This document shows positions 17,733 to 62,800 of a stretch of DNA of 64,000 nucleotides, one piece after another (position 1 is the stretch's first letter; each line of letters begins with the position of its first letter). The notes below the pieces were generated by a model. It did not search any database. It saw nothing but the letters and a program-made list of their open reading frames with translations, and was not told the origin of the DNA. A program made the position numbers and the translations under genes. Source of the stretch: Zygnema cylindricum (Eukaryota; Streptophyta; Zygnematophyceae; Zygnematales; Zygnemataceae); NCBI GenBank assembly GCA_037447655.1, contig JBBHKE010002397.1:387960-451959 (forward strand), given 5' to 3'.

Positions 17733-17802
<70 letters not shown>

Positions 17803-18290
17803 CCTCCCTCCCTATCTCTCTCTCTGGGTCAGGTTTATGCTCAAGCAGAAACATGCGAGGAAGAAACGCAAGTAGAAAAAGCCATGGCTAAAGCCTTGGA
17901 AAGGCTGGAGGTGAAGGAAGCTTCAAAAGCGTCAAATGAAAATACAATGGTTAAAAAAATTATAAAACCTCGTTTAGAACTTATATGGGGGACGACAATG
18001 TACCATATCGAGGATTTGCCTTTTGTTTCATCGCAATTACCAGATGTGTACACTCAATTTCGGAAGGTGAGTTGAAGTAAATTATACAATAGATTGACTT
18101 TTAGAATGGAGGGAATGAAGGCAGTAGAGGAGAGTAGTCAAGAACTTTCTATTTGTCTTGCATGATAATGATTATTACTTAACATCTTTTATCAGTTGGT
18201 TTTACATGATTTTGAGCTCGTTTTTCCCTCGGTTTAAGGCAATTTGTTGCTACCTGATTTTTCTGTGGGAGGGGCATACATTCTTGCTGA

Positions 18291-18327
<37 letters not shown>

Positions 18328-19887
18328 TATTATTATTATTGTTTTTCTTTTGTTTTGTTATGTGAACAAGGCAAGACCTAAACCTTGTATCCCTACTAGT
18401 GTTAATGGTTTCAGCCTTGAACTTCATTTTTTCTCGATGTACACCTTTTGGATTAGTAATGACGGTTGTGATGGGAAGTTACGTTTCTTATTTCAGTTCA
18501 CAGTTTCCAAATGAAAATCAGACAGGTGTGCACGAAGAAAAGTTGATTTTTTTGAGTGGCGAAACAAAAATTAATTCTAATAACGATATTCTTGAAAACT
18601 GTCAACTTCCTCTTTTACGACATCGACCAATTAGAGTTTTAAAACTCTTTCCTTAAGTTTCTATGCACCTTTCAGTTACATATATGTCTTACAATTTTTT
18701 TTTTCAGGCCACACTTGGTTGAACTTAAGTCCATTCTACGGTTCAATAAAGTCAAAAACTTTACATTAAAAACAAGATATAGGAGTCGATTTAATTTTGG
18801 ACCTTATTACCTTATTTTACCTTATCTGACAACATGTACTAATGGGATTGTATTGTAATTATTTAAAAGCAAAAGCAACTTTCCAACACAACCCACACTA
18901 ATAATGGTGGGAGATGTACACAATTATGGACCTGATTCAGTCTCACAGACAAAATAGGATAAAGAAAAAACAATAAATTGTAAAGAAGAATAATGTCAGT
19001 ATTGACGTTTTTTAAAATTTGATCATTTTTTTCATGTTGTTAACCTCTCTCCATCGTTGGTCACTCGAACCAAACGACAAAAAACCAAGCATGTTTGAAA
19101 ACATTTCCAAACAATATTTTTTATTTTTTTTTTCTCTTAAAACAAAGCTTGCTTAACTAAATTTCTTCTTTTCGGTCTCTGTAACCACACAAAAAATTTG
19201 TCACGTAAAAAATCGTCACTTATAAACAAAAGATGCTTAAGAAAAACCTTTTTCTTCCGGTCAATTTGTGTAGGCAGTGGAGACTTCTTCAAAGGTTCGT
19301 GGACCTATTGAAATGCCTCAAAATCTAGGGAAGTTTCCTGGAAGCCTCCTGGACAAGATTGGAGGAATTGGGTCCATTCCTTCAGTTTCAGATTTAGGTC
19401 TTCAACCACGGGAACAGGTAAAATGGGGAAAAATAAACCATATTTTTTAAACCGTAATTTTCGAACCATAGTTTTCAAACCGTATTTTTTTAGCCATAAT
19501 TTTTTAACCGTGTTTTTTTTGTTTTTTGACATGAGAGACAAAAACAACCAGTTTTAAATATTTTTACTCTCATGAGCATCGTAAAAAACCTAATGTTGAT
19601 TTTTTTTATTTTCATAAGCAACATATTTTAAAACAATCACTTTTTTCATGAGCAACATAACTTCTGTAATAGTTTATTTTCTTTCTTCTGTACATAAATT
19701 TTAGTACTTTTTGGCTTTGCATTTTTTTTTGATGAGATTTCTTTTTCAGGATCCACGTGGCGTGCTCCCATTCGTCGGTGGAGAATCGGCCGCTTTAGAA
19801 AGGCTTAACAACTACATGTGGAAAAATGTCAGTTGCTGAAAATCCCCTTTGTACCCTTTTACTACTCTCTCTCTCTCTCTGTCTCTT

Positions 19888-19941
<54 letters not shown>

Positions 19942-22709
19942 GCTCTCTCTCTCTCTCTCCCCCTTTTGGTCCCTCTCTTTCTCTCTCTCTCCTCTCTCTC
20001 TTTCTCTTTCACTCTCTCTCCTCTCGGCCCCTTCTAAGCAGTCTATAAAAAAGAGACGTAGTTTAGTCGGTTTTGCGGAGTTTTTCGAGGCTTCATTTTG
20101 TCAGTTATATGGATATAAATATGAGACATGAAACAAAAGAGAGAGAGGGAAACAAAAGGGAGAGGGAAAACGAAAGGGAGAGAGGAAACAGAAGGGAGAC
20201 AGGGAAAGCAAAAGGGAGAGACGGAAAACAAAACGGAGAAGAGGGAAAACAAAAGGGAGAGGGGGAAACAAACTGGAGAGAGGGAAACATAAATTCGAGT
20301 TATCCATATTTGAGGTATAAAACTAAAGGGAGAGAGTGGGGAAACATAACTTTGAGTTATGAAGCAAACGGGAAAGTGAGAAACTGTAAATTGAAGAAAT
20401 GAAAGAGGGGAAACAAAAGGGAGAGTGGCAAAACATAAACCTGAAATATGAATCAAAAAGGAGAGAGGGGAAACATAAATCTGAGGTATAAACTAAGAGG
20501 AGAAAACATAAAATTTGAGATAATAAATCAAAAGCGATATATGAATTAAAAGAGAGAGAGAAAGGGGAAAAAACAGGATATGTTATGTCGCTATAAGGAG
20601 ACTCGAAATGGAATGCTGGGACCCGACTACAGTACAAAATTCAGTCCCTGGCTCGCTATTGGCTCTCTCTCTCCCCGCCTTATCCATGCGGAGGTCAGTT
20701 CCCACTGTTCCGTTCACCTTTATTAGTGTTGACGAAATTTGTCTTTGTTTTCTTCTGGTCTTTCTTCATTCTTTTCTGGTTTTTCTTAGTTTTTCTGGTT
20801 TTTCTTCGTTTTTTCTAGTTTGCCTTCGTTTCTTTCTGGTTTTTCTTGGTTATTCGTTTGTCTTTCTTGGGTTTTCTGGTTTTTTGGGGCAGTTACTCAT
20901 TCCTAAATGAGGTCCAACCTTACCATGTATAGTGTGGATAATACTTCATTTGTTCTTCTTTTCATTCCTTTCTTTCACTCCTTCCTTTCATTGGGACTCC
21001 TCCCTCTCCCTCTCCCCTCTCCCCTCCTCTTTTCTCCCTCCTCCCTCTCCTCCTCTCTCTCTCTCACTCTCTTGCTCTCTCTCTTTCTCTCTCTCTCTCT
21101 CAGAGGGAGAGGGGAGAGCTCTCTTTCTCTCTCTCCCTCTTTCCCTGTCCCTCTATTTCTCCTCGGGATTATAAGGAGAGAATAGTACTGCTTTTACAAC
21201 TAGTCCAAAAGCTTATACGAACTTTAACCTATTTTGAGAACGTGAATTGTTTGGAACCTTAAAAAATCTAACGAAACAGTTTTTTGTTGTTTTTGTTGTT
21301 TTTTTGGGTGGTGGAAATAAGTGCCAGGTGGCGAGATATGAGAGGGAGAGAGTGGCAAATGAATCCACTTATTGGTCAGTGTGTGATCTCTCTCTCTCTC
21401 TCTCTCCCTCTCTCACTCTCTCTCTCCCCCTCTCTTTCCCTCTCCCCCCTCTCCCTGTCTCTCTCTCTCTCTCCTCTCCCCCTCTCTCTTTCTTTCCCTC
21501 AACCTCGCCCTCTCTCGTCCTTGCTCTATCCCTCTATTTCTCTCTCCCTCTCTCTCTTTTCTGTGCTGTTTTTGTGGATTTCTGGAATATCACTACAGTG
21601 AAGGATTTGTGCTTTTTCTGATATTTTTTTATATTGTACCGTTTGTGTAACCTTTTATCTTATTCTATTCTATTTTATTTTGTTTTTTTTTTGTTTTTTT
21701 TCTTATTTTGTTACAGGTTGTTATTTGAACTTATTTGGAGAGACTATTTTCGTTTCCTTTCGATCAAATGTGGGAACTCCATTTTCCATTTAGGTGAGTG
21801 TAGGAGGGAAACAAAATTCAAAGGGGAATAGGGAGAGGGAGAGGGAAATAGAGGGGCATAGAAAGGGAGAAAACGAGGAGGAGAGAGAAGGGGAAAACGA
21901 AATAGAATAACGGATTATGTTTAGAAAATAACGGATTATGTTTTGGAGAAAAATTAATTATCTTTCGGAGAAAAAATAATTTTCTTTCAGAGGAAAACTA
22001 ATTATGGTTTGAAGAATTGTAAAACTGTTAACATTTGGGAGAATACCCTACCTAGAATCAGTACCTCATCACTTTCCTTGAATACGTAAAGAACATGTAA
22101 CCACTTTGTCTGATCAATATTAGAGTTAATAACACTAATCAGTCTCGACTTTTTTGGGCCGAAAACCATAAATTAGTCTTAACTTTTAAGGGATTTCCTT
22201 GGACTAAATTAGTACGATATTTTCTAGTATAATCTATTCTAGTATTGTATATTTTGGTACTATATATTCTAGAATTATATATTATAGTATTATATGTTTT
22301 AGTATTATATATTCTAATGTAATATATTGTAGTATTGTATATTCTATTACTATATATTCTAGGTTATATTTTCTAGTACTACATATTCTAGTATTATTCA
22401 TCCATGATCCGCGCAGTTTTAGAAGTCTTGAAACTATCTCAAACCACACCGCCCATCATTATCACAACTCTAATAACAATTGGGAGTGAAATTTTTTGTG
22501 GACCCACAGTACTTTGAGGCCCCACTGTATAACTGGTAAAATAGTTACTTGAAAGAGGTTAAGGAATACACACTAATTGTGGTTAGTTTTGTATAATCAG
22601 GTGGGCCTCGACACATGGCAAAAAAACAGGAATGGAGAAATGACAAGCTTCTTTTTGATGCCTGGAAAGACGGAATGACCGGGTATGGTTTCCCCACCCC
22701 CCCCCCTCT

Positions 22710-22755
<46 letters not shown>

Positions 22756-25700
22756 TACGTTCTCCTCTCCCTCGATGTTGTTTTGTCAATGCCTGGAAGA
22801 ATGGATGATTAGGTACTGTCTCTCTCTCTCTCTCCTCCCTCTCCTCTCTCCTTTTCCTTCTGTCACTTCTTCCTTTCTCCTCTCCCTCTTTCCATTCTGG
22901 GAGAAGCATTCACTTTTGTTTTTAAACCTTTTTTGAGCAATCCTTTTTTGTTAAAACCATTTGTTTTTTTGTTTTGGGGATGGGATAGATATCCCTTAAT
23001 CGATGCAAATATGCGAGAATTGTGGGGTACTGGTTTTATGTCCAATCGTGGGAGACAAGTAGGTTTTTTTCATCTCTTTCTTCTCATTTTCTTCTCTTTC
23101 TTTTCCTTTTCGTCTCTTTCTCATTTTCTTCTCTTTTTCTTTTGTGGTTTTTCAGATTGTTTGTTCGCTTTTAGTTTGAGAGCTGGGAATGGTTTTTCCG
23201 TTTTGTCTTTTGGCTACCTTTTCCAGTTTTAACAAGTTACCTTTTTTCTTTTCTTCTCTTTCTTTTTTTTTTGAGGTTTTCCAGATTGTTTGTTCGTTTT
23301 TAGTTCGAGACATGGGAATGGATTGGAGGATGGGAGCCGAATGGTTCGAAAGTCTTCTTTTGGACTACGATCCGTGCTCCAATTATGGGAATTGGACCTA
23401 TGGGGCGGGTAAATACCACACCTTAATTAGTGTGGTTCTGTTTTGTTTTTTTTCTTAATTAAGTCTTCTGAATTTGCATGTGGATCTATAAGAAGATGGT
23501 TAAATTTGTGCTCCAATTACGGGAATCAGACCTACGGGGCGGGTAGATACCACACCCTATTTAGTGTGGTTTTGGTTTTATTTTCTCATAAACGAAGTCT
23601 TCTAATTTGCCTGTGGTTCGATGGTTAAATTTGTGCTCCAATTATAGGAATTGGACTCATGGGGAGGGTAAATAGCACACCTTATTCAGTGTGGTTTTGT
23701 TTTTGTTTTAAGTCTTCTAATTTGCATGTTGTACGATGGTTAAATTTGTGCTCCGATTATGGGAATTGGACATACGGGGCGGGTAAATTTCACACCTTAA
23801 TTTGTGTGGTTAATTCTTATTTTCTTATAAATAATGTTTGTAACTTCGCATGTGGTAAAGTTCAAGCGTGGGAATTAGACATACGGGGCAGGTCTCACTT
23901 ACCTCTCCCTCTCCTCCTTCCTCGCCCTCTCCCGTTTTTGGTTGCAATAGTATTAATACATAAATTTCTGTGTACAAAACGCCTACCCTTGAAAGAAAAA
24001 ACCTTCAGAATAGTAAATTGAGTGAAATAAACTTCATAGAATGAACTTTCCTAGTCTCAAATGAGTCGTCGAATTTTTAAATCAAAATCATATTTCATTA
24101 GTATTGTGAATATAAGTTCATAAAATAAAGAGCGTAGTAAATTGGACCATAGAATTAGTACTTTATTCGCCCCATACTAACTCTTAAAATTTTGAACTAA
24201 ACAGATTTGATGAATTCACCGCAGAAAACATAAAATAGACATCGTTTGTAAATATAAACACCACGTTAAATAAGGTATTTACTGACCCCAGATGTGTTCA
24301 CTAACTCATATTTAATTTTGCTGAATATTGAGTGAAACCTAAGTTTCTATTTTGTGTAGAAAGTATTTAATGATGTTTTGAAAATTTTTGAGAGAGTATT
24401 ATTATTGGGTATTGATATTGCTATAATTTTTTTCCTTCTTTGCTTTTTTTTTTTCTTTTCCGTTTTCGTTTTCGTTTTTGGTTTCATTTTCTTTCCTGTT
24501 TTTTTTTATTTTTCCTTAAAAAAGGGATGTTGATGGTGTTTGAATGCAGGAGTCGGAAATGATCCTCGGGAAGATCGATATTTTAGCATTCCAAAACAGG
24601 TACACTTTAGTAAAAGTAATTTCCTTTTTTTTTTTTCTAGAAACTATTTGTTTACCGGCACTCCTTCCTCCCGCCTTCCCTCCCTCCCTCCTCCCTCTCT
24701 CCCTTCCTCCCTCACTCTCTCCCTTCCTCCCTCCCTCTCTCCCTCTCCTCCCTCCCTTTTCCCTCCTCCCTCTCTCCGCTCCCCCCTTACCCTTCTCTCC
24801 CTTCTAGACAAAGTCTAAACTTGAAAGTAAAGAACCTAATGGCTGTTAAATGCGCACGAAAAATAAATAAAGAAATAACCAAAAGAGAAAATAACAAAAT
24901 ATACTGTTTTCAAGAACCACAAGATAGCACTTTTGTCACACCTATTATGTTTTCATAAACCCGGTTTCAAATTTTTTCATAAATCACATTCTTTTTTGGG
25001 GCTTTTTCTAACCTATATCAAGCACGATTGTTTGATGGTTTTTTCAACGGAAGTTTAGTGTGAATATAGCGATTGTACCGTTTTTTCGAGTCTTACTTAA
25101 ACCTGATTAGACACATATGTACTCAAAAAAACTGTTTCAAAAAGGTTTTAAAATGATGTTGAGCGGTTTTAACAAGTTTTTTAATGAATTGTATTGTTCT
25201 TTCTGGGCTCTCTAAAACCCTTCTTTTAGGCATAAAATTTAATGGTGTCATACGATGTCATCGTTTTGTTGACCTCAGAAAAAAAAAATTGTACATTTTC
25301 TTTTCGATGTTTTTTTCATGACAGTTTAGTGTGAATTTAACAATCGTACCGGTTTTCGTAGTCTTTTTTAAACTTTATGAAACACATGTTCTCAACATTA
25401 CGGTTTAGAAAACGGTTTTGTAACGGTTTTACAACAGTTTTAAAACAGCTTTTAGAATGGTTTTAACAAGTATCAACGATTTTACGAATTGAATCGATCT
25501 TCCTTTTTTTTTTCTTTTTTAGGCGCAAAGCTACGATCCAGAGGGAGAATATGTGGCTCATTGGATTCCGGAAATTAAAAATTTAACTCCAAAATCTCGA
25601 CACGCGCCACATCTGTTGTCTCCTTCTGAAAAATCTTTAAGGGGATGGCCGATACAAGGAGGGTATCCTAACCCTATAGTGCATCTCAAACATGGAGGAG

Positions 25701-25891
25701 GAGGAGGAGGAGGAGGAGGAGGTAGAGGTGGTGGTAGGGGTGGAGGAGGGGGAGGGAGAGGTGGAGGGAGAGGGGGAGGTAATGGAAGAGGAGGGAAAGG
25801 GGAAGACAATGAGAGAAGTTGGCAAGGAGGGAGTGGAGGGAGAGGGGCGCGGACGTGGAAGGGAGGGCCGGGACAAACCGTAAAGTTTTAA
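14050..25891 (+). CDS. CRYD: Cryptochrome DASH (CRY-DASH), complete 14-exon gene
   Basis: Flavoprotein of the photolyase/cryptochrome family. DASH members repair cyclobutane pyrimidine dimers in single-stranded or looped DNA using blue light. Exons are 14050-14251, 16265-16528, 16939-17078, 17833-18066, 19274-19417, 19750-19827, 20577-20693, 21328-21374, 21717-21793, 22601-22682, 22989-23058, 23285-23408, 24550-24599 and 25523-25891. They join in frame to about 665 aa. Residues 1-105 are a Ser/Arg-rich, acid-poor extension resembling the organelle presequence of Arabidopsis CRY3. The photolyase domain opens with [17 protein letters not shown] near 106. FAD-domain signatures follow: [62 protein letters not shown] and [17 protein letters not shown]. 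From about residue 600 the protein ends in a Gly/Arg-rich tail typical of many DASH proteins. Introns carry at least four MITEs and many CT microsatellites. All junctions are GT-AG with matching phase. The start ATG at 14050 was chosen because it heads the only exon that splices in frame to exon 2. Confidence 0.93.
15473..15790. mobile_element. MITE in CRY-DASH intron 1
   Basis: The left end ACCGTGAATCGCAATTAGTG pairs imperfectly with the right end AATAGTGATTGCCATCCACT. It belongs to the CACCR-terminal family. The interior is AT-rich with no coding capacity, and boundaries are approximate. Confidence 0.55.
15825..16052. repeat. GA-rich purine tract in CRY-DASH intron 1
   Basis: Imperfect GAGAGG and GGGAGA repeats. 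Pro/Ser/Leu frames on the opposite strand are artefacts of the repeat. Confidence 0.85.
16785..16866. repeat. CT microsatellite in CRY-DASH intron 2
   Basis: Nearly pure CT dinucleotides about 70 bases upstream of the exon 3 acceptor. Confidence 0.9.
17171..17390. mobile_element. MITE in CRY-DASH intron 3
   Basis: Terminal repeats: left GCCGACCATCGTTATTAGAG, and the right end reverse-complemented CACCGCCCATTGTTATTAGC. The right end is followed by TA. Related to the elements in the M1AP-like gene. Confidence 0.7.
17732..17826. repeat. CT microsatellite acting as polypyrimidine tract of exon 4
   Basis: Over 40 CT units, then CCCT repeats, end six bases before the AG acceptor of CRY-DASH exon 4 (exon start 17833). 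It occupies the place of the polypyrimidine tract. Confidence 0.9.
18295..18341. repeat. TTA trinucleotide microsatellite in CRY-DASH intron 4
   Basis: About 15 TTA/ATT units with one ACT interruption. Confidence 0.9.
18383..18597. mobile_element. Degenerate MITE of the hairpin family in CRY-DASH intron 4
   Basis: Inner arms TTTCTCGATGTACACCTTTT and ACAGGTGTGCACGAAGAAAA and the terminal motif CTAATAACGATATT match the 6753 and 42941 elements. Confidence 0.6.
19866..20035. repeat. CT microsatellite in CRY-DASH intron 6
   Basis: Long CT run with TTTCGCTC interruptions starting about 38 bases after the exon 6 donor. Confidence 0.9.
20130..20585. repeat. Purine-rich GGGAGAG(G)AAACAAAA tandem repeat in CRY-DASH intron 6
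   Basis: About a dozen imperfect units of GGGAGAGGGAAACAAAA type, with variants around ACATAAATTTGAG, running close to the exon 7 acceptor. Opposite-strand Phe/Pro/Ser frames are artefacts. Confidence 0.8.
20992..21165. repeat. CT-rich tract in CRY-DASH intron 7
   Basis: CT and CCCT repeats broken by a short GAGAGGGAGAGGGGAGAG block near 21101-21118 that can pair with the flanking CT runs as a hairpin. Confidence 0.85.
21388..21562. repeat. CT-rich tract after the donor of CRY-DASH exon 8
   Basis: Begins 13 bases after the exon 8 donor (21375) and consists of CT and CCCT repeats. Confidence 0.85.
22118..22491. mobile_element. MITE in CRY-DASH intron 9
   Basis: Left end AATATTAGAGTTAATAACAC pairs with the reverse complement of CTAATAACAATTGGGAGTG. 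The interior contains repeated TATTCTAGTATTATAT units at 22215-22395. Boundaries are approximate. Confidence 0.55.
22707..22900. repeat. CT microsatellites flanking a duplicated exon-10 end
   Basis: Two CT runs (22707-22752 and 22818-22840) separated by AATGCCTGGAAGAATGGATG at about 22788, which is a near copy of the last bases of CRY-DASH exon 10. Confidence 0.75.
23376..23895. repeat. Minisatellite built from the end of CRY-DASH exon 12 and its donor
   Basis: Four near-complete units plus a partial fifth, period about 118-130 bases, begin at roughly 23375, 23503, 23630, 23748 and 23868. Each unit repeats CTCCAATTATGGGAATTGGA, then a GGGGCGGG(T)AAAT donor-like junction and a short intron piece (CACACCTTAATTAGTGTGGTT, a small palindrome). 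The first unit is the real exon end (23408); the others lie in intron 12. Confidence 0.88.
24660..24800. repeat. CCCT/CT-rich tract in CRY-DASH intron 13
   Basis: Imperfect CTCCCTCC repeats beginning about 60 bases after the exon 13 donor. Confidence 0.85.
25692..25800 (+). repeat. GGA/GGT codon repeat encoding the Gly-rich tail
   Basis: GGAGGAGG and GAGGTGGTGG repeats inside CRY-DASH exon 14. They encode the glycine-rich C-terminal tail. Confidence 0.9.
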
Positions 25892-31794: not shown

Positions 31795-34700
31795 ATGCCG
31801 GCTCTGAGCTTGTCACCTTCAAACTTGCTTGTAGGTTCAAATAATTCTAAGTTCAGTGAAGAAGCTTCGATTCGGTCAGGTAACCGAGATGCAAAAGTTT
31901 GTTCATCAACTAGTGTTGATCAGCTCGCTTGGATCAAGAGCAGCCAAAACTTGTCGCAACTAAAGCACACAACATCGACCAGGAAGTCAGCAACAAGTCG
32001 TGTTGTGAAGGCTATTCTCGATGTACCAGCTGGTCCTGGTCCTGCTGGAGAGAAAAGAGATTCTATTCAGCGTCTAGCTTTAGCAGGTTTCACTACTGGT
32101 GAAGTTGGTAGTCAAGCCTTCAGAACTGCAGAGGAGAGGATTTATGAAGTGGTAGTGAAGGAGGCGGCAGCAAGTCAAAGGTCCTCATTGCGGGATGTAA
32201 TGCCTGGCCTTCTCACAACTCCCGAACTTCTTGTTGAGGCGTATGAGCGTTGTGGAGAAGTCTGTGCAGAGTATGCAAAGACGTTTTACTTAGGTAAGCT
32301 TACCTCTGTTCTAAAGCACTTGAGAAATGGGATTTTTGTGTTTAGTGCGAAATATATATGTGAATCAGGCAGTAAAACTTTTTCTTATGCACACGCTTGA
32401 AGTATTCGCATTCTCATCGGAGGTTCATTATGGAATGCTCAGTATTTGAAGGAATTTTTTTAGATAAAATTTTGTTAGAGCGTAGTACTCCTCCATCTCA
32501 AATTGGCGCTGTCATTTCAACTTGTGGAAACTGTTATTTTTTCCTATTCTCATATTTCAAAAGGGCTGTTGCTGGTTTATGTAATCAGGGACCAAGCTGA
32601 TGACTCCTGAAAGGCAGCGAGCAATCTGGGCTATATATGGTATGTTTACACACTTTTTTTCAACTTTGAGCGGTTTCTTATGTCGACTGATTGTACTTGC
32701 TTTGTAGTGTGATATTTTGTAATGCACATAAGGTCATGCCTGCTTTTTAAATTTCCAAATAGTTTGAATTGCTTGCTGGTTCTATTTGCAGGCATGATAA
32801 CGGCAAAGACTGGACTTGGTTATTGGTCATGTTGATAGGAATCTGAGATTAAATTTTGAAAAGTATATGTGAACAAAGATGGTTGAGATCAACACTCATT
32901 TAACATGATTGGTTGTCGATCATTTTGATATGAATCGGACTTTGAATTTTGAAAAGATATTTATGTACCCAAGAGTCAGAGTGACCTGCTGCAGATCTAG
33001 GTGCTTTATTTGTGAAAACAGATATCTGAGCTTTTTTATTATTCTGAGGTACTGTCTATTTGAAAGAGACAGACATAGATGCAAAGAGGGGGAGAGGCGG
33101 ACACACAGCGATAGACGGTTGTCGGTCATTTCGATAGGAGGGCATTGCATTTTCAAAGCTGTATACGTAGCCAAAAGATCCTTGTGATTGCATTCGGAAA
33201 TATGTTTTTGTAGCCAAAAGATCGGAGCGATCTGTTGTCAATCCAGGTGCTTTATTCTATTTTGTTTGAACATATCTGATTTTGTTTATTATTCTGGGCG
33301 ACAGTTTGGTGCAGAAGAACCGATGAGCTTGTTGATGGTCCCAATGCGCCGAGAATCACACCTGGAGCACTTGATCGCTGGGAGGAACGTCTAGAAGACA
33401 TATTCAATGGCCATCCTTATGACATGTTGGATGCCGCTCTTGCTGACACAGTCCGCAACTTTCCTGTAAATATTCAGGTCAGGATCTCAACTTTTCTGTA
33501 AACATCTCCCTCCCTTTCCACTTCATCCTTCCTCCCACTTATGTGTCTGTGGTTTCTCTCTCCTCTTGTATGCAATGATTAAGGTCACCTGTTTTCTGCA
33601 AAAGTCCATGTATGCTTTTTTAATGTTCATGACATTTGTAATTCCTTTCTCTTGTGTTCATGGCTGACTGATATGATCTTAATTAGTCAAGGTTTCTTTC
33701 CATCTGTAAACACGGATTATTGCTAGAGGTCTCATGAGTATAAGCATAATAACTTCTAATAATTTACTTAGAACTTGGACCTTATAATTAGAGCAAGGAT
33801 AGTCGTCACTAGGTTCAGACATTCACATATGGATAGTGAAAATAATTCTTTGCTTTCAATTATTAGAATATTTTTGCTACAATCATCATATAAGGAAGTC
33901 TTTGCATTGCTTGTTGTCATCATAACAGTTTTGAGATCAATTGTGTATCATTGAAATTTCCTTTTTGTGACATTGTTACTGTTTGATGAATGCAGCCTTT
34001 TCGGGATATGGTGGAAGGAATGCGAATGGACCTTCGCAAGTCCAGATACGCCAACTTTGACGAACTTTATGTATATTGCTACAATGTGGCCGGCACTGTA
34101 GGCCTCATGAGCGTTCCAGTTATGGGAATTGCTCCTGAGTCAGTAGTGGACCCTGTGGAAGTCTACAATGCGGCCCTTGGTTTGGGGATAGCAAATCAGC
34201 TCACAAATATTCTGCGTGATGTCGGAGAAGAGTAAGTTTGCTTTATTTTGTTTTTGCACACCTGGAACCTTTTCGTTGGTACTGTTCTAATTTATTTTTT
34301 ACAAGTCTGTATGATGTGACCATTTGGACACGTGACTTCTGTAGAGTAGATGAGCTCAGGGACTTGCCTGTGGTCCGGTTTTCTTGTGGGCATTTGGCTC
34401 AAAATGACTTGTTGATGAATGATATGTATGTAATATTATTGTGCACCTCTCATTTTACTTTTTTTTGGTGGTACTCTTTCAGTGCTCGGCGTGGTCGCGT
34501 CTATCTCCCTCAAGATGAGTTGCAAAAGTTTGGATTGAGTGATGCTGATATTCTCGAGGGTGTTGTAACTGATAAATGGAGAGCATTTATGAAATTTCAA
34601 ATTCAACGTGCGAGAGATTATTTCTCACGAGCTGAAAGTGGTGTAGCTGAACTGGACAGACAGAGTAGATGGCCGGTGAGTTTCTGGTTTTATCAATAGT

Positions 34701-40500: not shown

Positions 40501-43500
40501 CATCTTTTTTTGTTAGTTATAAAATGTCATTTCCGCTACTAATAACGAACAAAAAACCTCTTTCATATTTTGAAAATGCCCTAATGTCCTGTTTTACGTA
40601 AAAAAAAACTGTCAAAGAAACAAAAACAACAACAACAACAAAAACAACAAAAACAACAAAAAGTTTTTTCTAAACACCCATTTATATACCTTCACTCCGA
40701 CTGCCTGAAGACAAGTCATGTTGGCTCGAAGAGTTTCGAGGGACATTCCGAGAAAATTCGGGCAGCCACTCAAAACTTGTGCAACTGCCCGAGGTCGAAC
40801 TCCCACACTATGTAACAACTGAACTTGAGCCACAACATCGCTGAAATGCAAATTGCACGAATTAAGAGCTCGACCGATACAAGAAGCCTGTTCTTGCCGA
40901 AAAAATAACGTATACAAGAAAAAAACATAAAAGACAAGTGAAGGAAAAGGAAAAGAAAAGTTGAGAAGTTGTCGTAATAAACAGGAATTGGAAGTGAATC
41001 ACAAGAAGAAGACAGGTGATCTCGGAAGCATTCATGATTTGAAAGATCATAAAAAAAGGAAAAAAAACTATCCGAATATTTAAATATATTCAGATGTGTT
41101 TGAATGTATTTTGGAGACAGGAAGTGATAAGAAGCAATGGCCCAAAGAAAAAGATTGTTCGAGGTACTAATGAAAGTCAAAATTCGGTATTATCATCCTC
41201 TGACTCAGTACACCGTGAATCCTTACTAGGGTAAAGAAATTATTAATTTACTACTATTGATTCTTATTCAGTTCCAAATGACATGGCTGATTTTAAACTA
41301 TTATTGTTAAGGAAAAACGAAGTGTTTTTTTTGCTATTTTTTGGTCAGCGGGCAAAAAAAATCGTCACCGACAGCAATTCATAGAGAACTTTCAACAGCC
41401 AGCTTAGACCTGAGAGGGAGAAAGCGGGGGACGAGAGAGAGGGGATGAAAAGGAGAAGGGGAAGGAGAAGGAGGCTTTCATTTCTCACCTCCATTCCCAA
41501 GTTGTAAAGGTAACTGACTATTTTTGAAGTCCCATTACGTTCCAACATATCACGTATCTGGTCTGGCAAACTTTCAGCCAATGGGAGGCCTCGAGAATAT
41601 GCCGCCCAATCTGCTTGTTTGGCTTCTAGTAGCAATTCAGTTATGAGCAACGGAACTTTTGATGCAACTGTAACGGCAGCGTCTTGTGGCATAGAACGGC
41701 CTTGTAGTTCCTCAATAAGAATGCATCGAACTCTTTCTCGTTTACTCACCTAAAATTTATAAGGAAACAAAAGAAAATATAAAAGAAAAGAAATTACAAG
41801 AAATCAATAAGAATGCATCGAACTCTTCCTCATTTACTCACCTAAAACACATAAAGAAACAAAAGAAAATAAAAAATAGAAGAAATTACAACAAATCAAT
41901 AAGAATGCATCGGACTCTTTCTTGTTTACCCACCCTAGAAAAAAAATAAAAGACATTACAAAAAAATCACAATGAGGTATATATGCAGTTAGCGAGTATA
42001 AAATCCGTGTATAAGTGTGAGGGGATTTTGACTGCGTGTAATTTGCAAAAGTGGTAGAAAAAATAGAGAGAAATGATATAGATATAAGTACTTCAATTTG
42101 AGAATATCCCACATTTTGCGTAGTGGCTTCCAACCTGCACTCACTCTGTTTTCTATGATCATTCAATACTTAAAATTGTGTTTTCATTATATATCTTAAA
42201 GTAGTAATTTAACATGGAGACTGCAAATCGGAATTGGAATTTGAAATGTCGATTAAACTACACTATCCACAGTAAATACCACAGACTATTTCAGATGTCA
42301 CTAAACAAAGTGACATGAACAAAGTTTTAGGAAAAAAGTTCTAAGGAGGTAAATATAAGTGCGCTATAATCGAAATAATCGTATAGAAAACTGTATGAAA
42401 GGTACTGTTTTCTGTATAATTACAAGGATTGTTTTCTGTACAGTTACAAGGGTTACTGGCCAGTAAAGTCAGAAATTGCGTACATAATAAGTTTTATAGT
42501 TACCCTAAAAGCAGTTTAGTGCTTAATGGGCACAAATCCAAGTAAAATCATGTGCTTCATATTGCTTACCTCTCCCACTATTAATGAACTGCTTTTGCTG
42601 CTTTGAATTTCCATCGCTTTTGTTATTGTCAAGAACTAGAAACTGGAAATAAATGCTAAAATGTTTTATTATATGAATACATATAGACTTAATTTGGAAC
42701 TGGAAATGAATGTCCAGGTTTGCCCATTTTTGCACACATGATTTGATATGGACCATATTAATGTTATATCCACACTATGTCTCTGCCCATCAAAAATTAG
42801 TGTGAAGGAATTATTAATGTGATCGCGGAATTGGAATGTATAATACTGAAGAGTGTACCAACACTATATTATGATTTTCGATCCAAGAAAAAAGCCAGAA
42901 CCAAAAAATGCTATTGACAATAAAACCGATAAGGAGTGTACACCGCTAATCGTTATTAGTGTTAAAGTTTTTTCGTCACTTAAAACATCTTTTCTCCGTG
43001 CACACTTGTCGGATTGTCAATCGGAGACCGCCAATAGGAAGGTGAGAATCTTAACTTCCAATAGCAACCATCGAATTGACAATCCGACAAGTGTGCACGA
43101 AGAAAGATGTCTCAAGTGACGATTTTTTTTTTAACACTAATAACGATTAGCATTGTAATTCTCCAAGGCTAGGTGAAGTAGACAGTGTACACTCCAATAC
43201 CTAGAACTCACCTGAACAGCCAGAGATCCTCTATACTCCTCCGGCTCCTCGTTCCATGTTTTCAATGGCATGAGTTCCAATAAAGAACTGTCCACTTTTT
43301 CAACTTGCCATTGACCTCCTTTCCCACTCTTTAGCCCATCTCCGTAAGAAAAACGGTTTTTTCCTCGTTCGAGACCCATATCTCTGCTCAAAACTGCGAC
43401 AGAATTGGGTGGACGTGTATTTCCTGAGAGACAACTTTGATCCCAGGAGAAGCTTCCACGTGGCGAGTCCTCATTGGTCTTAGTCGGACTTTTTTGCTCC

Positions 43501-52201: not shown

Positions 52202-55200
52202 ATGAATGTGTACTTTGTACTGGACTGCAGTCTCGATAGAGTGACATTGAGCGCCATTAAAGAGGTAAGAAATTACAGCAATTTTACTACTTCTAATAGT
52301 AAGTTTAATGACTTAACAGGCATTGCCGCTTTTTGCCAGAGTGTAACTGAATAAAGTATGCTGCTGTAAAGACTATAATGTTATTAACTTTTGGTCAACG
52401 TTGACATCGTTGCTCATTTGGTGGTAATGCATGACTGGGAATTCTTTAACGACAAAAGATGAAGGTCTTAGCTTTAACCTTGTATTTGCTTTTCCGAGAA
52501 ACGAGAAACTTACCAAAGTACTTATTTTTATCACCTAAAGGATTTGGTGTTGTCTGTTGACTATGTCTATTGGTAGCAGGGCCTTTTGCAGCTAGGAAAC
52601 CTCCTTGCCCTAAGTGTTACAGGCAAGACTTCCAGAGAGAATTCGTTTTCCATCGGCATTTGCTATGTCAAACGTAACTCTGTCTCCACTTGCCATGAAG
52701 TAAGGTTGCTTACTGTCTCAATACGGTTGTCAATTCCTTTCATGCTGGCTCATTTTGGGCCAACATTTCTACCTATTTTGTGGCGATATTTTGCGCCGCT
52801 GTTTTGTACCTTTATTCATAACTTTATTTTTCGTACACAATCGTTTTGCTGGAGAAGACTGAATTTGCCTAAATATAGGAGAACCACATGCTGTGTATTA
52901 AACAATGACAGCTTTTGTGTCTGCAGTTGCAGATATTAGCAAAGGCTAGTGATGCCTTCAATCTCAGGGAATTCCATCAGGCATTAGCGGGATCAACGGA
53001 AATGTTGACGTTGTCAAATCCATTTTTTGAACAAAATACTGGAAGCGTCTCCATCAGCAGACAGGGTAAGTTTCACAACTCCTGTTACTGTGCTCAATGG
53101 ATGTTAACTGCACTTACCTGCATTCTTAAGTCTACGCTCTTTGAATGATTTTTTTTTTGTCATAAAAAGCTACGCGTTTTGCCTCCTAAATCTGTAATAA
53201 CGAAGTGTTCAGTACGCGTGTAAATTGAAGCGTACCTTTTTGTGTTCAGGTGTCATTTCAGGTTTGTCATTCTTTTCCGCCAGACTTAGACCAGATTCTG
53301 AATTATACTTTTAGTGCTTATAAGAAAAAATAAATTTATATTTTATTTCCTTGCTGTCACACACAAATTGCTTTGATGCTGAGTCAACTATTTGGCCAGA
53401 AAAGCCCTCTGTCTCCTCTGAACAAAAAGGTGCTGAATTGTTCATATTTTGCAATATGATATATCAACTGGATCTAGGTTCACACTAGTATTAATCTTTT
53501 TTTATTTCACATGCAGTATCTAGTTTAGGTGCCCTTCTTCAAGATGACAGTTCACAGCAACTTTGGGATCCCCGAGCATCTACAAAGAGGATAGTATTCA
53601 TTGCTTGCGAGTTTTCAGAAAGCATATCAACATCAAGAGAAACAATTCTGGTAAGGGTCATGATCTCGTGCATTAAAGGAAAACCTTTGACAAATGACTT
53701 GAATAATTTCTGTTAGTATTTTACTGTTTCCTCCCTTGTTTTCTCTTCCGCCCCCCTTGTCTCCCCCCTTTTTCTCTTTCTACATCTTTCTCTCTCTCCC
53801 TCTTCCCCCCTTCTCTCCCTCCTTTTCCCTCCTCTCTCCCTCTCTTTCTCTCCTCTCTCCTACTCTTTTCTGTTGCATTCTATCTCAGCATGTAAATCTA
53901 ACAAAAAAGGATTCTATTTCAGCAGTAATTTTTGAAGCTCCTCGAATTTTTACCTCTGAAATTTGGATATCACAAGTAAATAGGTTTTGAACAGATGCTG
54001 ATTGCTGAGACTTCATTTTGCTCGTTGCAAAAGTGCACTGCCCACTGTGTTATATAACAATATTCTGTCACGGTTTTTTGTGACCAGAAATCACAAAATA
54101 GTGTTAACAACACTTTTTTGAGGGAAGGACTACAATTCGTCACGTCTCCTTACATTAATTTAGAATTATACATTTTAATTCCTGCATTTAGACTAACAAC
54201 TTCCTTACACTTATAGCCATGGGCAATGAACCGCTTGCAGGAGGCCGCCAGACAAGGTGTCCTTTTGCAGTTTGTCTGCCTGGACCGGAATAATCAAAAT
54301 AATGGAATCAATAACGACTGTAAACTTAAATCGAAAACAAATACTTTCACTGAAGCAATTTCTTCATTTGAAAATTGTAGTTTCCAAAATGATATTTGCG
54401 GTATGTTTTCTAAACTCTCTGTGTATATCCCTTCTGTATTTCAAGGCTTTTTTTTTTTTTTTTTTTTCATTTTTGTGATTTTCAAGTCAATTCAAGCAAA
54501 TTGTTTTGATGTCTTATTCTGTGCTTGCAATTGGTTTTCAAAAATTAATGGAGAACATTTAAAATTCACAAACTTTTCACGACACTAGGTAAACATTTTT
54601 TTATGGTATCTTCATCCTCCATCTATTAAGGCTTTGTTCTTGGCAAATGCAGATCCATGGCTTCTGGATAAATTAGTGAAACGCTGGTTTCATGAAATTA
54701 CTCGTCTTGGGATGGAAACGTCAATTATCCTGGATTTCCCACAACCTCTCTTCACAGATATGACATCCATTAAATGCGACCTACGTCCCAGAAAATTGCA
54801 GTTATCAAACACCATGACAGAATGTCAGGTAAGCCCTGTCTAACCAAAAGCTTCCATGAGCTCTTTCCTACGGGTTGCTTTTTTCTTTTTTGTTTCTAAA
54901 TCTCGCGGCCTTTTCAGCATTTTACATTTACAGTTATGCAAGGGGACAGAGTTAAAACCACACTCCTCATCCCTGTTAGAGTTAATCACTCTAACTAGAG
55001 TGCGTATTTTCTTAACCCAAAATCATAAATTAGTGTTAGAAACACACTATTCAGTTAAGTGGTCCACAATGAGGCACGTGACTGAACATAATTTTAGTGT
55101 GGTTTTTCCAATCAAGTACTATAGCTACTAGCATCAACACTTCTTCATTTTTATTACATTAAATTATGTTCTGCCACGTGTCTTCTGATGGCCCACTATG

Positions 55201-58200
55201 TTAAATAGCGTGTTGTGAACATTAATTTATTATTTTGGGTCAAAAAAAACTCAAACGGATTAGAGTGATTGACCCTAATATAGTGACGGGCAGTGTAGCT
55301 TATTCTTTTGAAATGCTGCTTTGAAGACCTTGCTTTTTTATGTCCACATATTTTACTCTAATTACTGGGTTCCCTTTGTACAGACTTGCCGATGCCACGG
55401 AGCTGCTTTAAAAGAACAATGTGATAAGGCATTGAATGGAGCCTCTCCAATGACATGTCCTGTCACAGGAGGAGATCTAGACATTTGGGATTGTCAAACC
55501 AATGGACTGAAAATTGGAAGCGGGACAATACTTTATCTTCCCTCCTTCAAAAATCCTCCAATTTCCCTGGATCTTTCAGGCAGAAAGGATCCACCAGTTA
55601 TGAAAGTTTTGTCAAGGGTCAGACTTGCCACTTTAAGTGAAGGTGAGAGATTTGTGAAAGAATTCTTGTTTTTGATAGAATTTTAATTTAAAACAAATTT
55701 GTAGCTGTGTAGATGAGTGGCAAATTTGTCGATAGCGTCATAGGCGTATTGATTCCAGCTCCAATTTTGTTTGTGAAGGTTTGCTTTCCAGTAACTTTTT
55801 CTTGCCCACTCCCAACTCCTACACACACACACAACATTTCTGTTTGTAAATGCCTTTTTTTGGCGCAATTATGGTACATATCACTTCAAAAATAAACGAG
55901 CCTATAGAAAACATGAACAAAAAGCTGTTTTGTTGTTGCAGGTCTTCTCTTTGGCCTTCCATATGCTTTGACTTCCTCAACAGAACGACTTGATAACACT
56001 TCTTCTAACGAGGACAAAGCTCCACTGGGTACGCTGCCCATCGCTATTAGTGTCAATAACACATTCATTTTTGACTTTTTTTCATGAAAAATCATAAAAG
56101 AGTATTAAAAACATCACTTGAGGGAGTATTACAAGACGCCACGCCTACACTCAATTAGTAGTACATATTATAATTCCGCATCGACTCAATAATTCCCTTA
56201 CACTAATAGTGATGAGCAGTGTACTCATCATACCCTTGCTCACTGAGAGAGCGCTAATTCTGAACTTTTATTCCTTTAGACAGGCGACAAATATATCACA
56301 CTGTTGATGAATCCTACAATTAGCATTTGTCCTCTCTATCGTCAATTCTTTGCATCATAAACTGAAAGCATATTGAGTGAATTGGCCAACTTTGGTATTT
56401 CCATGTCTCACCGTACATTGATTATTACTAGATGTGCGTGCTGTCACATACCCATTTGTCCCTCTTAATCCTACATTGTGTAGCATTGTTGGTGTCGTTA
56501 ACCGAATCCATGTTTTACGTTCTAAAAATTCTGTATAAATCACAGATTATGTTTTTTTAAACTTCTCTGTAGGAATCATTGAAAATCTTTTCTGGATGAA
56601 TCACTGTCTCTGCATTCTAAAGCTTCTCTGGATGAATCACAGTATTTGCAGGTTTGTGTCAAGTTTTGGATTCAGAAGATTGTGGTTTATTGTGTACATC
56701 AAAGGCAGACTTGGAGGAAGGAAAAGAAAATCCAATTAATTGTTACTACATTCTTCTGCCAACTGATGGTTCTCTCTTGGTTAAGGTGCTTGCCTCCACT
56801 GCTCAAAAACTTAAACAGTTTGAATGGAAAATGTATATCCACTGAAAACATTCAATTATACTCTTTAGATTTAGCAAGGATTTTTGGGCGTCATAGGGAT
56901 ACAGGGATACAGGGAGGCAGGGAGGCAGGGAAGCCAGGGGGACAGGGAGGCAGGGAGGCAGGGAGGCAATACAAAGTTCAAGTGAGAGGGTGCTTGGGAG
57001 TGCATGCATGGACTGTCCAGATTTTTACAGATGGTTTACTTTTTCCAACAGAAAGTTGTCGCTGCAGAAGAACTTCTGCCCATTGCTCAAGACTATGAGA
57101 CCGTCGTCCCAGAGAACATCACTAATTCTGTTAAAGACTCTCTCTCAAAGGTCAGAAATGCCATCTTATTCTTACATTTCTTCAAACAAACGTCGCTACT
57201 TCTTTTTTTTAAACATGGGTGAGTGTATGCCACTAAGCTGTCAATCTTAAGCTCTTTGCTCGGTATATGGGAATCTACATTCTATGACATTAAGGTTGAC
57301 ATAAATACCGTCTATTTGCAGATGACTTTGGAGAATTATAACCCGCTAAAGCATGAGACTGGTTGTCATTCAAAGCTGACGTGGCTCGTGAAAGAAAGTC
57401 TTCAAGTGAGGTAATGTTGCTAATCCACAATCGCCTCGTATCATTCTCTAACATATTAGCTACAATATTAAGCTCATACCTCATTTCTTACTCTCTATCT
57501 CTTTGCCATTTCCTTTTATTTTTCTTCGGCAATTTGCAGAACAAGATCCAAAGCAGAGGCTATGAGAAGAAATGGAAGGAATCTTCATATAAACTTGCCT
57601 CCAGGTCAACAATCGTTTCCGTCAAACGCAGTACAAATGCAACCTCGAAAAGGGGCATTGTCCCCTCCACTGGGTGAGTCTAAATCTCTAGATGGGAGTG
57701 GTGAACATCCTTCAGTCCATCTAAGAAACCCAACTGATTCGGCACATAGAACACGCTCACAACATCCAATTCAACGATTGAATGAAAACCCCAACTTCCC
57801 TCGGATGAAAGAAAATCCCAACTTCCCTCGACAGAGTTTACCGATGAGATTTTCAAATGTCCATAGTGCAACTAGGAGCTTGCCACCTCATCCTGTAAAT
57901 CCTAGCTCTCGAGATATGTCATCTTATGTTAATGATCGATCTCAACAGAATCGACAAGAACTAAGAGTTTCCAGAACTAGTTATTCTAGTACAACCGGTG
58001 GAGACATTGTCAATACAAAACATAGTCCACTGCCTTTGGAGTTCCGTTCGGCAACTGCGGTTCTTAATGGGAATAACCAGGAGAATTTGCCAGAAAGAAA
58101 TGCTCATGGGAATCCTGGTATATCTCCATCATCTCATTACCAGAAAGCTTATCCAAGGAGGAGAAATCTTGCCCCTCATAACAACCGTCCGGTTAACAGT

Positions 58201-58296
58201 GGTCACGAGCCAGAAGGAAGTTTCGAGCCCTCGCAAAGTCATCTTACTATCGCTCAAAGACGAGCTTTGTTAGAAACAAACAGGCCTAAGCAATAG
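52202..58296 (+). CDS. M1AP-like protein (meiosis 1 associated protein homologue)
   Basis: Thirteen exons join in frame to 775 aa: 52202-52264, 52580-52699, 52927-53065, 53517-53650, 53889-53975, 54217-54400, 54653-54828, 55384-55642, 55942-56028, 56652-56785, 57052-57150, 57322-57410 and 57540-58296. Compared from memory with vertebrate M1AP, the collinear similarities are: the N-terminal strand-helix (MNVYFVLDCS; later LLALS plus SFSIGICYV), KRWFHEITRLGME then IKCDLRPRKL, VLSRVRLATLSEGLLFGLPY, LCQVLDSEDCGLL, CYYILLPTDGSLLVK, and YNPLKHETGCHSKL. In mammals M1AP works in meiotic prophase with the TEX11-SHOC1-SPO16 crossover group, so a meiotic role is inferred here. Around residues 303-340 a cluster TCRCHG, QCDK, TCPV, WDC could bind zinc and is not matched in the human protein as I recall it. 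After about residue 525 the tail is long, Ser/Pro/Asn/Arg-rich and probably disordered, with the direct repeat NENPNFPRMKENPNFPR. The start is the only in-frame ATG near the conserved N-terminus. MITEs touch two splice sites. Confidence 0.75.
53735..53870. repeat. CT/CCCT-rich tract in intron 4 of the M1AP-like gene
   Basis: Imperfect CT and CCCT repeats ending close to the exon 5 acceptor (exon start 53889), where they probably act as its polypyrimidine tract. Confidence 0.85.
54035..54228. mobile_element. MITE spanning the 3' splice site of M1AP-like intron 5
   Basis: Left end CACTGCCCACTGTG and right end TATAGCCATGGGCAATG are inverted. The interior (ATCACAAAATAGTGTTAACA, TTGAGGGA, CCTTACATTAATTTAG) matches the element at 56032-56221. 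The acceptor AG (54215-54216) and the first 12 bases of exon 6 lie inside the right terminal repeat. Confidence 0.75.
54961..55295. mobile_element. MITE in M1AP-like intron 7
   Basis: Left CACTCCTCATCCCTGTTAGA and right (reverse complement) CACTGCCCGTCACTATATTA, followed by TA. The same family as the intron 5 and intron 9 elements. Contains CATAAATTAGTGTTAGAAAC and its inverted relative. Confidence 0.75.
56032..56221. mobile_element. MITE at the 5' splice site of M1AP-like intron 9
   Basis: Ends CGCTGCCCATCGCTATTAGT and, reverse-complemented, CACTGCTCATCACTATTAGT. TA duplications lie at 56030-56031 and 56222-56223. The T of the left TA is the second base of the exon 9 donor GT (56029-56030). 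Confidence 0.88.
56895..56972. repeat. GGGAGGCA minisatellite in M1AP-like intron 10
   Basis: About nine units of GGGAGGCA or GGGATACA. Pro/Leu/Cys-rich frames on the minus strand are artefacts. Confidence 0.9.
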
Positions 58297-59850: not shown

Positions 59851-62800
59851 TCACCTACTCAATTCCTCCACCCGCCTTAACAATGTTATAGCCACCTCAC
59901 GAGAAATAGACCCTCCTCCTTTAACCGCTTTATTATCGGCCCACTGAACCCAAATTGCTTGGTCTTCACTCTCCCAGGGAGGGAGGAGATCAGAAATTTG
60001 TGGGAAAAAAACCCTCGAAAAACTATCTCCCTCCTTACATTCTCCCCTACCTTCTTGTGGTAAAGACTTTCGACCATCCTCCACCCTCATTTCCTTATCC
60101 CTTTCCTCTCCTCTCACACCAGAATCTTCTCCCTCTCTTCTCCCCTCGGTACTTGATGTCGGATCTCTTAAAATTTCACTTTCCCCTTTCTCAAGACTAA
60201 GAATTTTCTGCCTCTCAGAACCTGACACCTGTCCTCCCCATATAAGGTCTGAAAGCAAAAGCCATACTGAATCAGAATCGATATTTGCGAGAGAAACTAT
60301 CGCATTTCCGGCCGATTTTTGCAAATCTGGTGGAAAATTCCTTCCCAAAAAAGGAATTATTACCGCAGCAACTTGTTTAACCAAAGGAGAAAGAGCATTT
60401 TTGCTTCCTTCTCCTCCAGCAATTCTCGTTATGAACTCCAATACAGCTTTCCGTATTTTCACAACCTCCATCGGTATCAAATCCCGGTACTTTTCTCTTC
60501 CAATCCCCTTTTTCTCCTTTGAAATAAACGCCACTTTTCTCACTACGCTTTTGCCCTCTCCCTCTCCCTGGTTCTCCACGGAATCGAGGGATAAAAGATC
60601 TTTGCGAGGTACTGATTTTTTAGGGGCCATAAGGAGAGGATTACCTGTTAAGGATGTATATGAAGGAGGAGAGAGAGGAGAACCTTCGAGAAGTAAACGA
60701 GTGAGGAGAGACCACAAATCGTCTCTGATTCGTCGAGAAATGAAGTGTCCTCCACTCACATGTGCTACCGAGGCTATGACTTCAAGAGCCCTAATAATAG
60801 CCTGGGGGAAAAAAAAAAAAAAAGCAGAAAAAAAAAAAACAATATTGTAAAGGGAGGAAGGAAAAAACTAAAGAAAGTGACCCCGGGGTTCAAATAGAGC
60901 AATACGTGTAATTGAGTCTTTGAGAGAATAAAGCAAAGAGAAAGAGAAGAGAGGAGGGAAAAGAGAAAGCGGGAAGAAACATGAGGGAGAGGAGCGAGAG
61001 GAGACGGACACAAAACAAAACGAAAGGAGAAAGGGGATAGAGGAGAGAGATTGTAGAAGTGACAGGAGGGGAGAGGGGAGAGTGGAGCAGAGGAGAGGAG
61101 AGGAGAGGAGAAGAGAGGAGAGGAGGAGAGGTTAGATAGAGGGGGGGAGGAGAGGGGAAGGGATGGGAGTTGATCAACATCTTTAGTTTTTATTTAATAC
61201 TCTATCAGTTAAAAAGAAAGATAAACAAAAAATGTCACATAACGCCAGCTCCTACCGCTAAACTAAAACCACAAATATACTTATAACAATAATAGTAACA
61301 AACAAAAAAAAAAAGAGAAAGGGAAGCACTTACCGGAGTTTTGTTACTTCCCACACAAGCTACCAGAAAAGGCCAAAGGTGATGGACACGTGGCAACAGC
61401 CGATTGGTTTCGTCTTCCGATTTCCTTTTGCTCAAATCGTCCTCCAAAAGAATTTCTCTCTCGCTCTCATCTATCTCCTCCAAAGTCTCAATGATCCCTT
61501 TTAAAGTTTCAAACTCTCTCTCTTCCAATTTTAAGGCAGTTTCCACATGATAGAGGGCAAATACGGCTGCCTGGAAAAAAGAAAAACAAATAATTTGCTC
61601 TTGAAATTTATCACAATAAGTCATATCGTCCCTTTTCCCTTTTACCCTTTTTCCCTTTTACCCTTTTTCCCTTTTACCCTTTTTCCCTTTTACCCTTTTT
61701 CCCGTTTTCCCTTTTCCTCTCCTTTTCTTTCTTCTTTTGAACCAATTTCCACTTTTACATGCTTTTGAGCTCCTTTAACATGGAAGAGAAAGCAAAGACA
61801 CATATCAGACAAAATTACAAACAGACGATAGAAAAAAAAAGGAAAAAGAAAGAAAAAGAAAAGGAAAGAGAGGAACTCAAAAAGTTATTCGAAAACGTTT
61901 TCCTCATTCCATAAAATATTATACCTCCGAAACGTCTAAAGCAATTAGTCGTTGTTGAAGTTCCTTTGAACATATTAATGGAGAAGAAGCTTCCAAACAT
62001 CCGGAAGATAGTCCAGAGAGAGACCTCAAAAGTTTTCCGCGATTTTCTAATTTTCCCGTAGCTTCCTCTACATCAATTATCGACCATTTTTTTGATTTGG
62101 GACCTGCAAATATAACCTTTTCCCGTCAAACTCTACCATAACAACGCAGTTTTTAAACTACAATTTATTTTGTGGATTGTTCGATATGATTTTGGGAAAA
62201 GTTCAAATTCTAAAAAATCCAAAAGTGGTACAAATGATCGAAAATTTCAAAGAGCCGAAGTAATTTTAAAACAGACTTTCCCTCTCAAAAAGAAAGACAC
62301 AATCTCTGTAAAATGTCATTGTACAATAAAGAAAGAAAGAAAGAAAGTACCGTAAAGCACTTTACTTCAGATGTACTTCACATGTACTTTTTTCCTTATT
62401 GTTACGTTTTCTGCAAGTACACACTATCAACTTTCGGTGGTAGTTAATTCAATTTTACTAGTAGTTTATGCGCACTTAAGCGTACTTTATTTGTACTTAT
62501 ATGTGATCGATTTGCAGTACACTTGTACTCAAGCTGTATATACATTTACTTACTTGTTAAATGAATAGAAACAGTTTAAATTTCAAAGTTTTGTTCAGTT
62601 TATAAAAAAAGTACTCGCCAATTGGTTCAATTAACCGGGCAAGAGAAAACATTTTTTTGCGACGTCAATTACGGTTCAAATACTGTATTGTTACGGTGTT
62701 GTAATTCTCCTTTATTTCCTACTAGCTTCAAAAATTCAAAAATACGAGGTTTTGATCCTTAAATTAAATCAACTTTCTGCGTAAAAATTGAAGTTCAGAA

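Follow-up and report, generated by a model that had tools for sequence, protein, structure and literature searches.

The 64,000-nucleotide stretch of Zygnema cylindricum DNA analysed here (positions 387,960 to 451,959 of contig JBBHKE010002397.1; hereafter the window, with all coordinates counted from its first letter) carries a protein-coding gene at 52202-58296 on the + strand. Its product belongs to a plant protein family that is almost certainly homologous to the vertebrate meiosis 1 arrest protein M1AP, as judged by sequence profiles compared in both directions. Orthology is very probable. We propose, with a probability of roughly 0.6, that this plant-lineage member of the M1AP family is a Ku-like protein that serves in meiotic prophase as a scaffold on SHOC1, PTD and ZIP4 and makes class I crossovers more numerous.

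The gene is composed of 12 exons and 11 introns, all with GT-AG borders, and the joined frame runs free of stops from the start codon at 52202 up to the stop at 58296. This span had already been proposed in a first-pass annotation made from the letters alone, and it holds, with start, stop, splice sites and open frame all in order; by contrast, the 13 exons and 775 residues given there were not reproduced. Instead, the product has 746 or 749 amino acids, depending on whether the acceptor of exon 9 lies at 56652 or nine bases upstream at 56643. The upstream acceptor is preferred because it restores a phenylalanine (VFAGLCQ) found at this place in the aligned plant and vertebrate proteins, and the resulting 749-residue form served as the query in the extended protein search and in the later comparisons. 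When the intron before exon 9 was scanned, no further in-frame exon of at most 60 bases with the missing N-x-Q residues turned up, so the count of 12 exons was kept. A 59-residue probe from exon 6 matches a single place in the 352.8-Mb assembly, namely this locus.

A search of 5.8 billion proteins recovered 12 relatives of the window protein, with E values of 4.2e-82 to 4.3e-50, all of them from land plants (Ginkgo, Cryptomeria, Taxus, Canna, Ceratopteris, Castilleja, Striga, Musa, Vitis, Rehmannia, Helianthus and Coptis). Named members include Cryptomeria SUGI_0967870, Vitis LOC117925281 and Gb_40776, which we take from its gene name to be the Ginkgo protein. A second search, scored on residues 205-495, returned 24 matches. 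The 21 that the first search had not given include two Adiantum ferns and the liverwort Calypogeia fissa. Altogether the family comprises 33 protein clusters from liverwort to angiosperms, some of which share a species and one of which (P0137) bears no species name. The Striga and Rehmannia records are labelled “meiosis 1 arrest protein”, so some database annotation already makes the connection to M1AP; a Hibiscus record is titled “like AT5G07380”, an Arabidopsis gene known here by that title only. In four Gossypium records (P0145 and P0151-P0153), a plant M1AP relative is joined to cupin domains; these are perhaps fused gene models.

The plant proteins share a C-x-x-C-x-C-H-G motif followed by a later cysteine, which is invariant in the 13 aligned sequences and at least 90% conserved in 24. 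The tails of the land-plant proteins align poorly with that of the window protein, and the plant tail also differs from that of vertebrate M1AP. In both the profile and the joint alignments, only the first two cysteines of this motif align with the vertebrate segment CLKC; the motif may be a plant-specific metal site. A tree restricted to plants places the window protein and the liverwort protein outside vascular plants (support 56). When seven vertebrates are added, the vertebrate branch attaches to the seed-plant stem (support 59) and the ferns group with the liverwort (support 46); as this topology departs from the accepted plant tree, we regard it as unreliable for placing the window protein. 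The sequence of the gene fits a streptophyte host, and the earlier description of the genome as streptophyte-like finds support in the close relatives of known species, which are land plants.

For comparison with vertebrates, a human M1AP query retrieved 469 proteins. The 120 listed among them are all vertebrate by species name and all carry PF28287.1; 16, later 19, of those listed were aligned, as were 24 of the 33 plant proteins. Alignment of the plant profile (13 plant-side rows including the window protein) with the vertebrate profile by hhalign gave 97.8% with an E value of 1.3e-12. With the window protein placed first, the match covers its residues 207-478 at 97.6%, with an E value of 3.4e-12 and a score of 102.6, compared to a maximum of 28.4 (mean 18.0) for 60 column shuffles of the vertebrate alignment and 20.2 for the reversed alignment. 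In a test set that mixed 25 true targets with 1000 shuffled and 25 reversed sequences, the vertebrate profile gave the window protein 38.7 bits (E 2.1e-11) and each of the 24 plant proteins between 58.7 and 14.5 bits; the best decoy, at 8.7 bits, stayed below every true target. In the opposite direction, the plant profile recovered 18 of the 19 vertebrate proteins at an E value of 4.9e-12 or better, with the best decoy at 4.2 bits, and the window sequence alone recovered the same 18 at 5.3e-5 or better. Homology to M1AP, first noticed by eye, is therefore borne out in both directions.

Most of this signal resides in residues 335-500 (hhalign 98.4%, E 8.8e-15, score 92.1; maximum of 40 shuffles 27.1), and a lesser part in residues 200-335 (49.6%, E 1.7e-4, score 29.4; maximum of 40 shuffles 18.5). 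Identity to vertebrate M1AP is 21-27%; a BLASTP alignment with Latimeria M1AP has 27% identity over 151 columns, with an E value of 3e-6 for this single comparison. When 17 plant-side and seven vertebrate sequences were aligned jointly, the two groups agreed in their majority residue at 41 columns and had similar ones at 19, by raw count. The matched region extends from the W motif to YNPL and has the same order of WF/WL, LLFGLPY, LC..L, YY.LLP..LLVK and YNPL in plants and vertebrates. Most of the motifs quoted in the first-pass annotation (WFHEI, LLFGLPY, LCQVL, YYILLP..LLVKK and YNPL) accordingly align in order, but its pairing of CDL does not stand, both alignments setting the vertebrate CLKC against CQTC.

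No other family was reached in this way. A Pfam scan with E values up to 10, within the HMMER filters, found no family for the window protein and four plant relatives, including the Ku domains (models of which are presumably present in the library searched) and the Tfb4 and VWA domains. In the PDB, in which solved Ku, Integrator and TFIIH chains are all represented, no chain was matched by sequence with the window protein, the plant profile or the vertebrate profile. The Pfam scan was likewise empty for the true M1AP proteins P0013 and P0119, and the copy searched apparently lacks PF28287. As there was neither a Pfam nor a PDB match, the sequences of the plant proteins led to no family besides their own and M1AP. 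Placement in TFIIH p34 or a generic VWA family with no match to M1AP, named at the outset as the outcome that would speak against the M1AP reading, was thus not what these searches gave.

The fold was read from AlphaFold models of two relatives, the fern member P0133 and the M1AP of the coelacanth Latimeria, with mean predicted local distance difference test (pLDDT) values of 58.4 and 46.6, respectively. The pLDDT of the fern model is about 80 over much of the core and low at about residues 250-330 and from residue 473 on. Structural similarity search of the fern model using Foldseek ranked Ku70/80 chains at the top, with E values of 5.0e-12 and 5.4e-11 over 504 and 587 columns, followed mostly by vWA domains. 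The Latimeria model also matched Ku70/80 best (1.3e-6), and then Integrator chains (3.1e-5 and 4.2e-5; 9eoc, 8pk6 and 7ycx), none of which is among the 50 matches listed for the fern model. Neither Ku70/Ku80 nor the Integrator subunits INTS13/INTS14 were matched by sequence in the Pfam and PDB searches described above. A Ku-like architecture has been reported for human M1AP, in common with INTS14, in a paper on genome-maintenance folds (PMC11377751), and the predicted architecture of the plant family would be of the same kind. The observed score for the order of predicted helices and strands, which draws on the low-confidence vertebrate model, was reached by two of 60 shuffles for the N-terminal part and by none of 30 for the whole core. 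Taken together, these comparisons suggest that the plant protein is arranged as a vWA-type domain, a Ku-core-like part, a C-terminal segment starting at Y-N-P-L, and a tail that, judging from the fern model, is probably disordered.

A possible function is provided by vertebrate M1AP. Human M1AP co-immunoprecipitates with SHOC1, TEX11 and SPO16, and the foci of TEX11, MSH5 and MLH1 are reduced in a man without M1AP (PMC12162868). Men with M1AP variants show mainly metaphase I arrest, and M1AP was termed an important but non-essential enhancer (PMC12162868). Moreover, SHOC1 of both human and mouse binds M1AP (PMC13245411), and in mouse the recruitment of TEX11 is aided by M1AP foci (PMC12069632, citing Li et al. 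2023). TEX11 binding is lost in all four truncated forms of human M1AP, the longest being cut at residue 433 (L433*), which the authors read as a requirement for full-length M1AP, with no site mapped (PMC12162868). Residue 433 of the human protein lies six residues before YNPL, a stretch common to plants.

By extension from vertebrate M1AP alone, we propose that the plant protein, probably inherited vertically from the common ancestor of plants and animals, would dock on SHOC1/PTD/ZIP4 in meiotic prophase as a non-essential scaffold, and that its C-terminal part would be required for this docking. It would then aid the loading of SHOC1/PTD/ZIP4, together with MSH4-MSH5, on recombination intermediates, such that intermediates bound for class I crossovers would be stabilised and class I crossovers would increase in number. 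By this analogy the plant protein probably acts in meiosis, and we see an even chance that it is a direct partner of the Zip2-Zip4-Spo16 (ZZS) proteins.

Several observations weigh against this proposal. The similarity, described in the first-pass annotation as running across the whole core, holds for residues 207-478, but the profiles detect nothing in residues 1-200 (hhalign 0.1%, score 11.3; maximum of 40 shuffles 18.0). One vertebrate protein, P0112, falls short of significance both with the plant profile (9.5 bits, E 0.017) and with the window sequence alone, and in the precomputed annotation PF28287 appears on no plant match, compared to PF28287.1 on the 120 vertebrates listed. Both structural models are weak, and they are models of relatives of the window protein. 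The TM-scores against Ku70/80 do not exceed 0.33 by query length or 0.38 by target length, with large root-mean-square deviations, and the domain order is therefore better supported than the detailed structure; the vWA part of the fern model alone matches many unrelated vWA chains, including TFIIH subunits, and does not discriminate among them. In the same genome, an exon-by-exon Pfam search matched neither SHOC1 (PF17825), for which no control matched either, nor ZIP4 (PF08631), for which the sole control, a bacterium, stayed below the cut-off. ZZS proteins evolve fast, and this, in addition to the exon-by-exon search, makes the null result for SHOC1 and ZIP4 a weak one. Even in vertebrates, the contact between M1AP and SHOC1 is possibly indirect or multivalent (PMC13245411). 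Furthermore, M1AP was held in 2025 to stop at fish, and its function thus to be younger than the ZZS complex (PMC12162868), a view the first part of which the plant family, judged by its sequences, contradicts.

That the likeness arose by chance, or from exons joined by hand, might be suspected from the low identity and from a first reading made by eye. Nevertheless, the alignable core recurs in plant proteins that were predicted independently, and the scores fall far lower with decoys, with shuffles and on reversal; these controls already refute such an explanation, to which we assign a negligible probability. Paralogy within a Ku-like superfamily is a subtler possibility, according to which the plant proteins would be a plant-specific Ku/INTS14-type family rather than orthologs of M1AP. 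The matches of the predicted folds to Ku and, for Latimeria M1AP, to Integrator subunits would suit it, as would the unmatched N-terminal part and the absence of the PF28287 mark from the plant proteins. Against it stands the fact that M1AP is reached by sequence and no Pfam family is, for the window protein and the four plant relatives, nor any PDB chain, despite the solved Ku, Integrator and TFIIH structures; we consider it highly improbable.

Even a true M1AP homolog could have other work in plants, for example in somatic cells, in repairing DNA as Ku does or in processing RNA as Integrator INTS13/14 does, in which case the meiotic role would be a vertebrate specialisation. The same fold matches are compatible with this explanation, any link of the plant gene to meiosis runs through vertebrate M1AP, and M1AP is important but non-essential even in men (PMC12162868). 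However, the literature consulted describes M1AP in no role other than a germ-line, meiotic one, and plants share the segment from YNPL onward that is missing from the human truncation unable to bind TEX11 (PMC12162868). We thus regard such other work as the less likely explanation, and favour the meiotic scaffold on SHOC1, PTD and ZIP4.

Table 1. Exons of the M1AP-like gene and other coding features in the window
Feature	Position	Strand	Content and evidence
Retrotransposon-like open frame	9593-10792	-	Weak integrase core match (below Pfam cut-off), then PHD finger
Photolyase/cryptochrome	16201-25888	+	Two photolyase domains, N-terminal (16.2 kb) and FAD-binding (25.5 kb)
Squalene/phytoene synthase exon	34220-34696	+	Pfam match
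mTERF-like exon	40615-40998	-	Below Pfam cut-off
Exon 1	52202..52264	+	Start codon; first strand of vWA-like domain (MNVYFVLDC); GT donor and open frame; aligned with land-plant N termini
Exon 2	52580..52699	+	Gene model; plant alignment
Exon 3	52927..53065	+	Gene model; plant alignment
Exon 4	53517..53650	+	Gene model; plant alignment
Exon 5	54217..54400	+	Late part of vWA-like domain, with domain limits drawn from the fern model
Exon 6	54653..54828	+	VKRWFHEI (Trp codon 54685-54687, common to vertebrate M1AP) and IKCDL; profile alignment
Cys/His motif C-Q-T-C-R-C-H-G ... C-P-V-T-G	54823..55470	+	Spans exon 6/7 junction; plant-conserved
Exon 7	55384..55642	+	Gene model; plant alignment
Exon 8	55942..56028	+	LLFGLPY, Ku-core-like part; within strongest vertebrate M1AP match
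Exon 9	56643..56785	+	VFAGLCQVL ... YYILLPTDGSLLVK; preferred acceptor 56643, alternative 56652; BLASTP with Latimeria M1AP
Exon 10	57052..57150	+	Gene model; profile alignment
Exon 11	57322..57410	+	YNPL (57337-57348), then KLTWLVKESLQV; gene model, profile and joint alignments
Exon 12	57540..58296	+	Tail and stop codon; fern model pLDDT <50 from residue 473
TTI1-like exon	59854-60867	-	Pfam scan

The photolyase, synthase, mTERF-like and TTI1-like exons would suit a green plant, without being strong evidence for one. The two photolyase domains probably belong to one cryptochrome/photolyase gene with long introns, which is presumably of the CRY-DASH type. A frame at 31783 on the + strand resembles by eye an earlier exon of phytoene synthase and has no Pfam match. 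To our knowledge, none of the photolyase, synthase, mTERF and TTI1 neighbours is a partner of M1AP. Over the 64 kb, ARAGORN found no tRNA, and Rfam gave no match at gathering thresholds.

With respect to the age of the family, the vertebrates form one group in the tree (support 100) on a very long branch of 2.9 substitutions per site, which makes a recent transfer look unlikely, and vertical descent from the plant-animal ancestor appears to be the simplest reading of the sequences. M1AP could then be a crossover factor of ancient eukaryotic origin that joined Zip2, Zip4 and Spo16 as a Ku-like fourth partner, predates the plant-animal split, is retained by streptophytes together with their own Cys/His module, and was lost by yeast; we hold the case for and against this wider proposal to be balanced. 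Among open-licence PubMed Central papers, judged mostly by title and the start of the abstract, no study of a plant M1AP was found, and PMC11466473 names M1AP in its reference list only. The initial claim that no plant M1AP has been described is in line with the papers so judged, although the name already appears in two plant database records.

A plant branch of the M1AP family, if true, would place the origin of the family at the plant-animal split or earlier. Loss of M1AP leads to male infertility in people (PMC12162868), and the plant branch would open M1AP to study in plants. If M1AP is indeed an ancient crossover factor, land plants would hold a pro-crossover gene that is absent from the papers found. 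Plants with defects in meiosis are viable, and their crossovers can readily be counted; the gene would also be a candidate class I crossover gene for crops.

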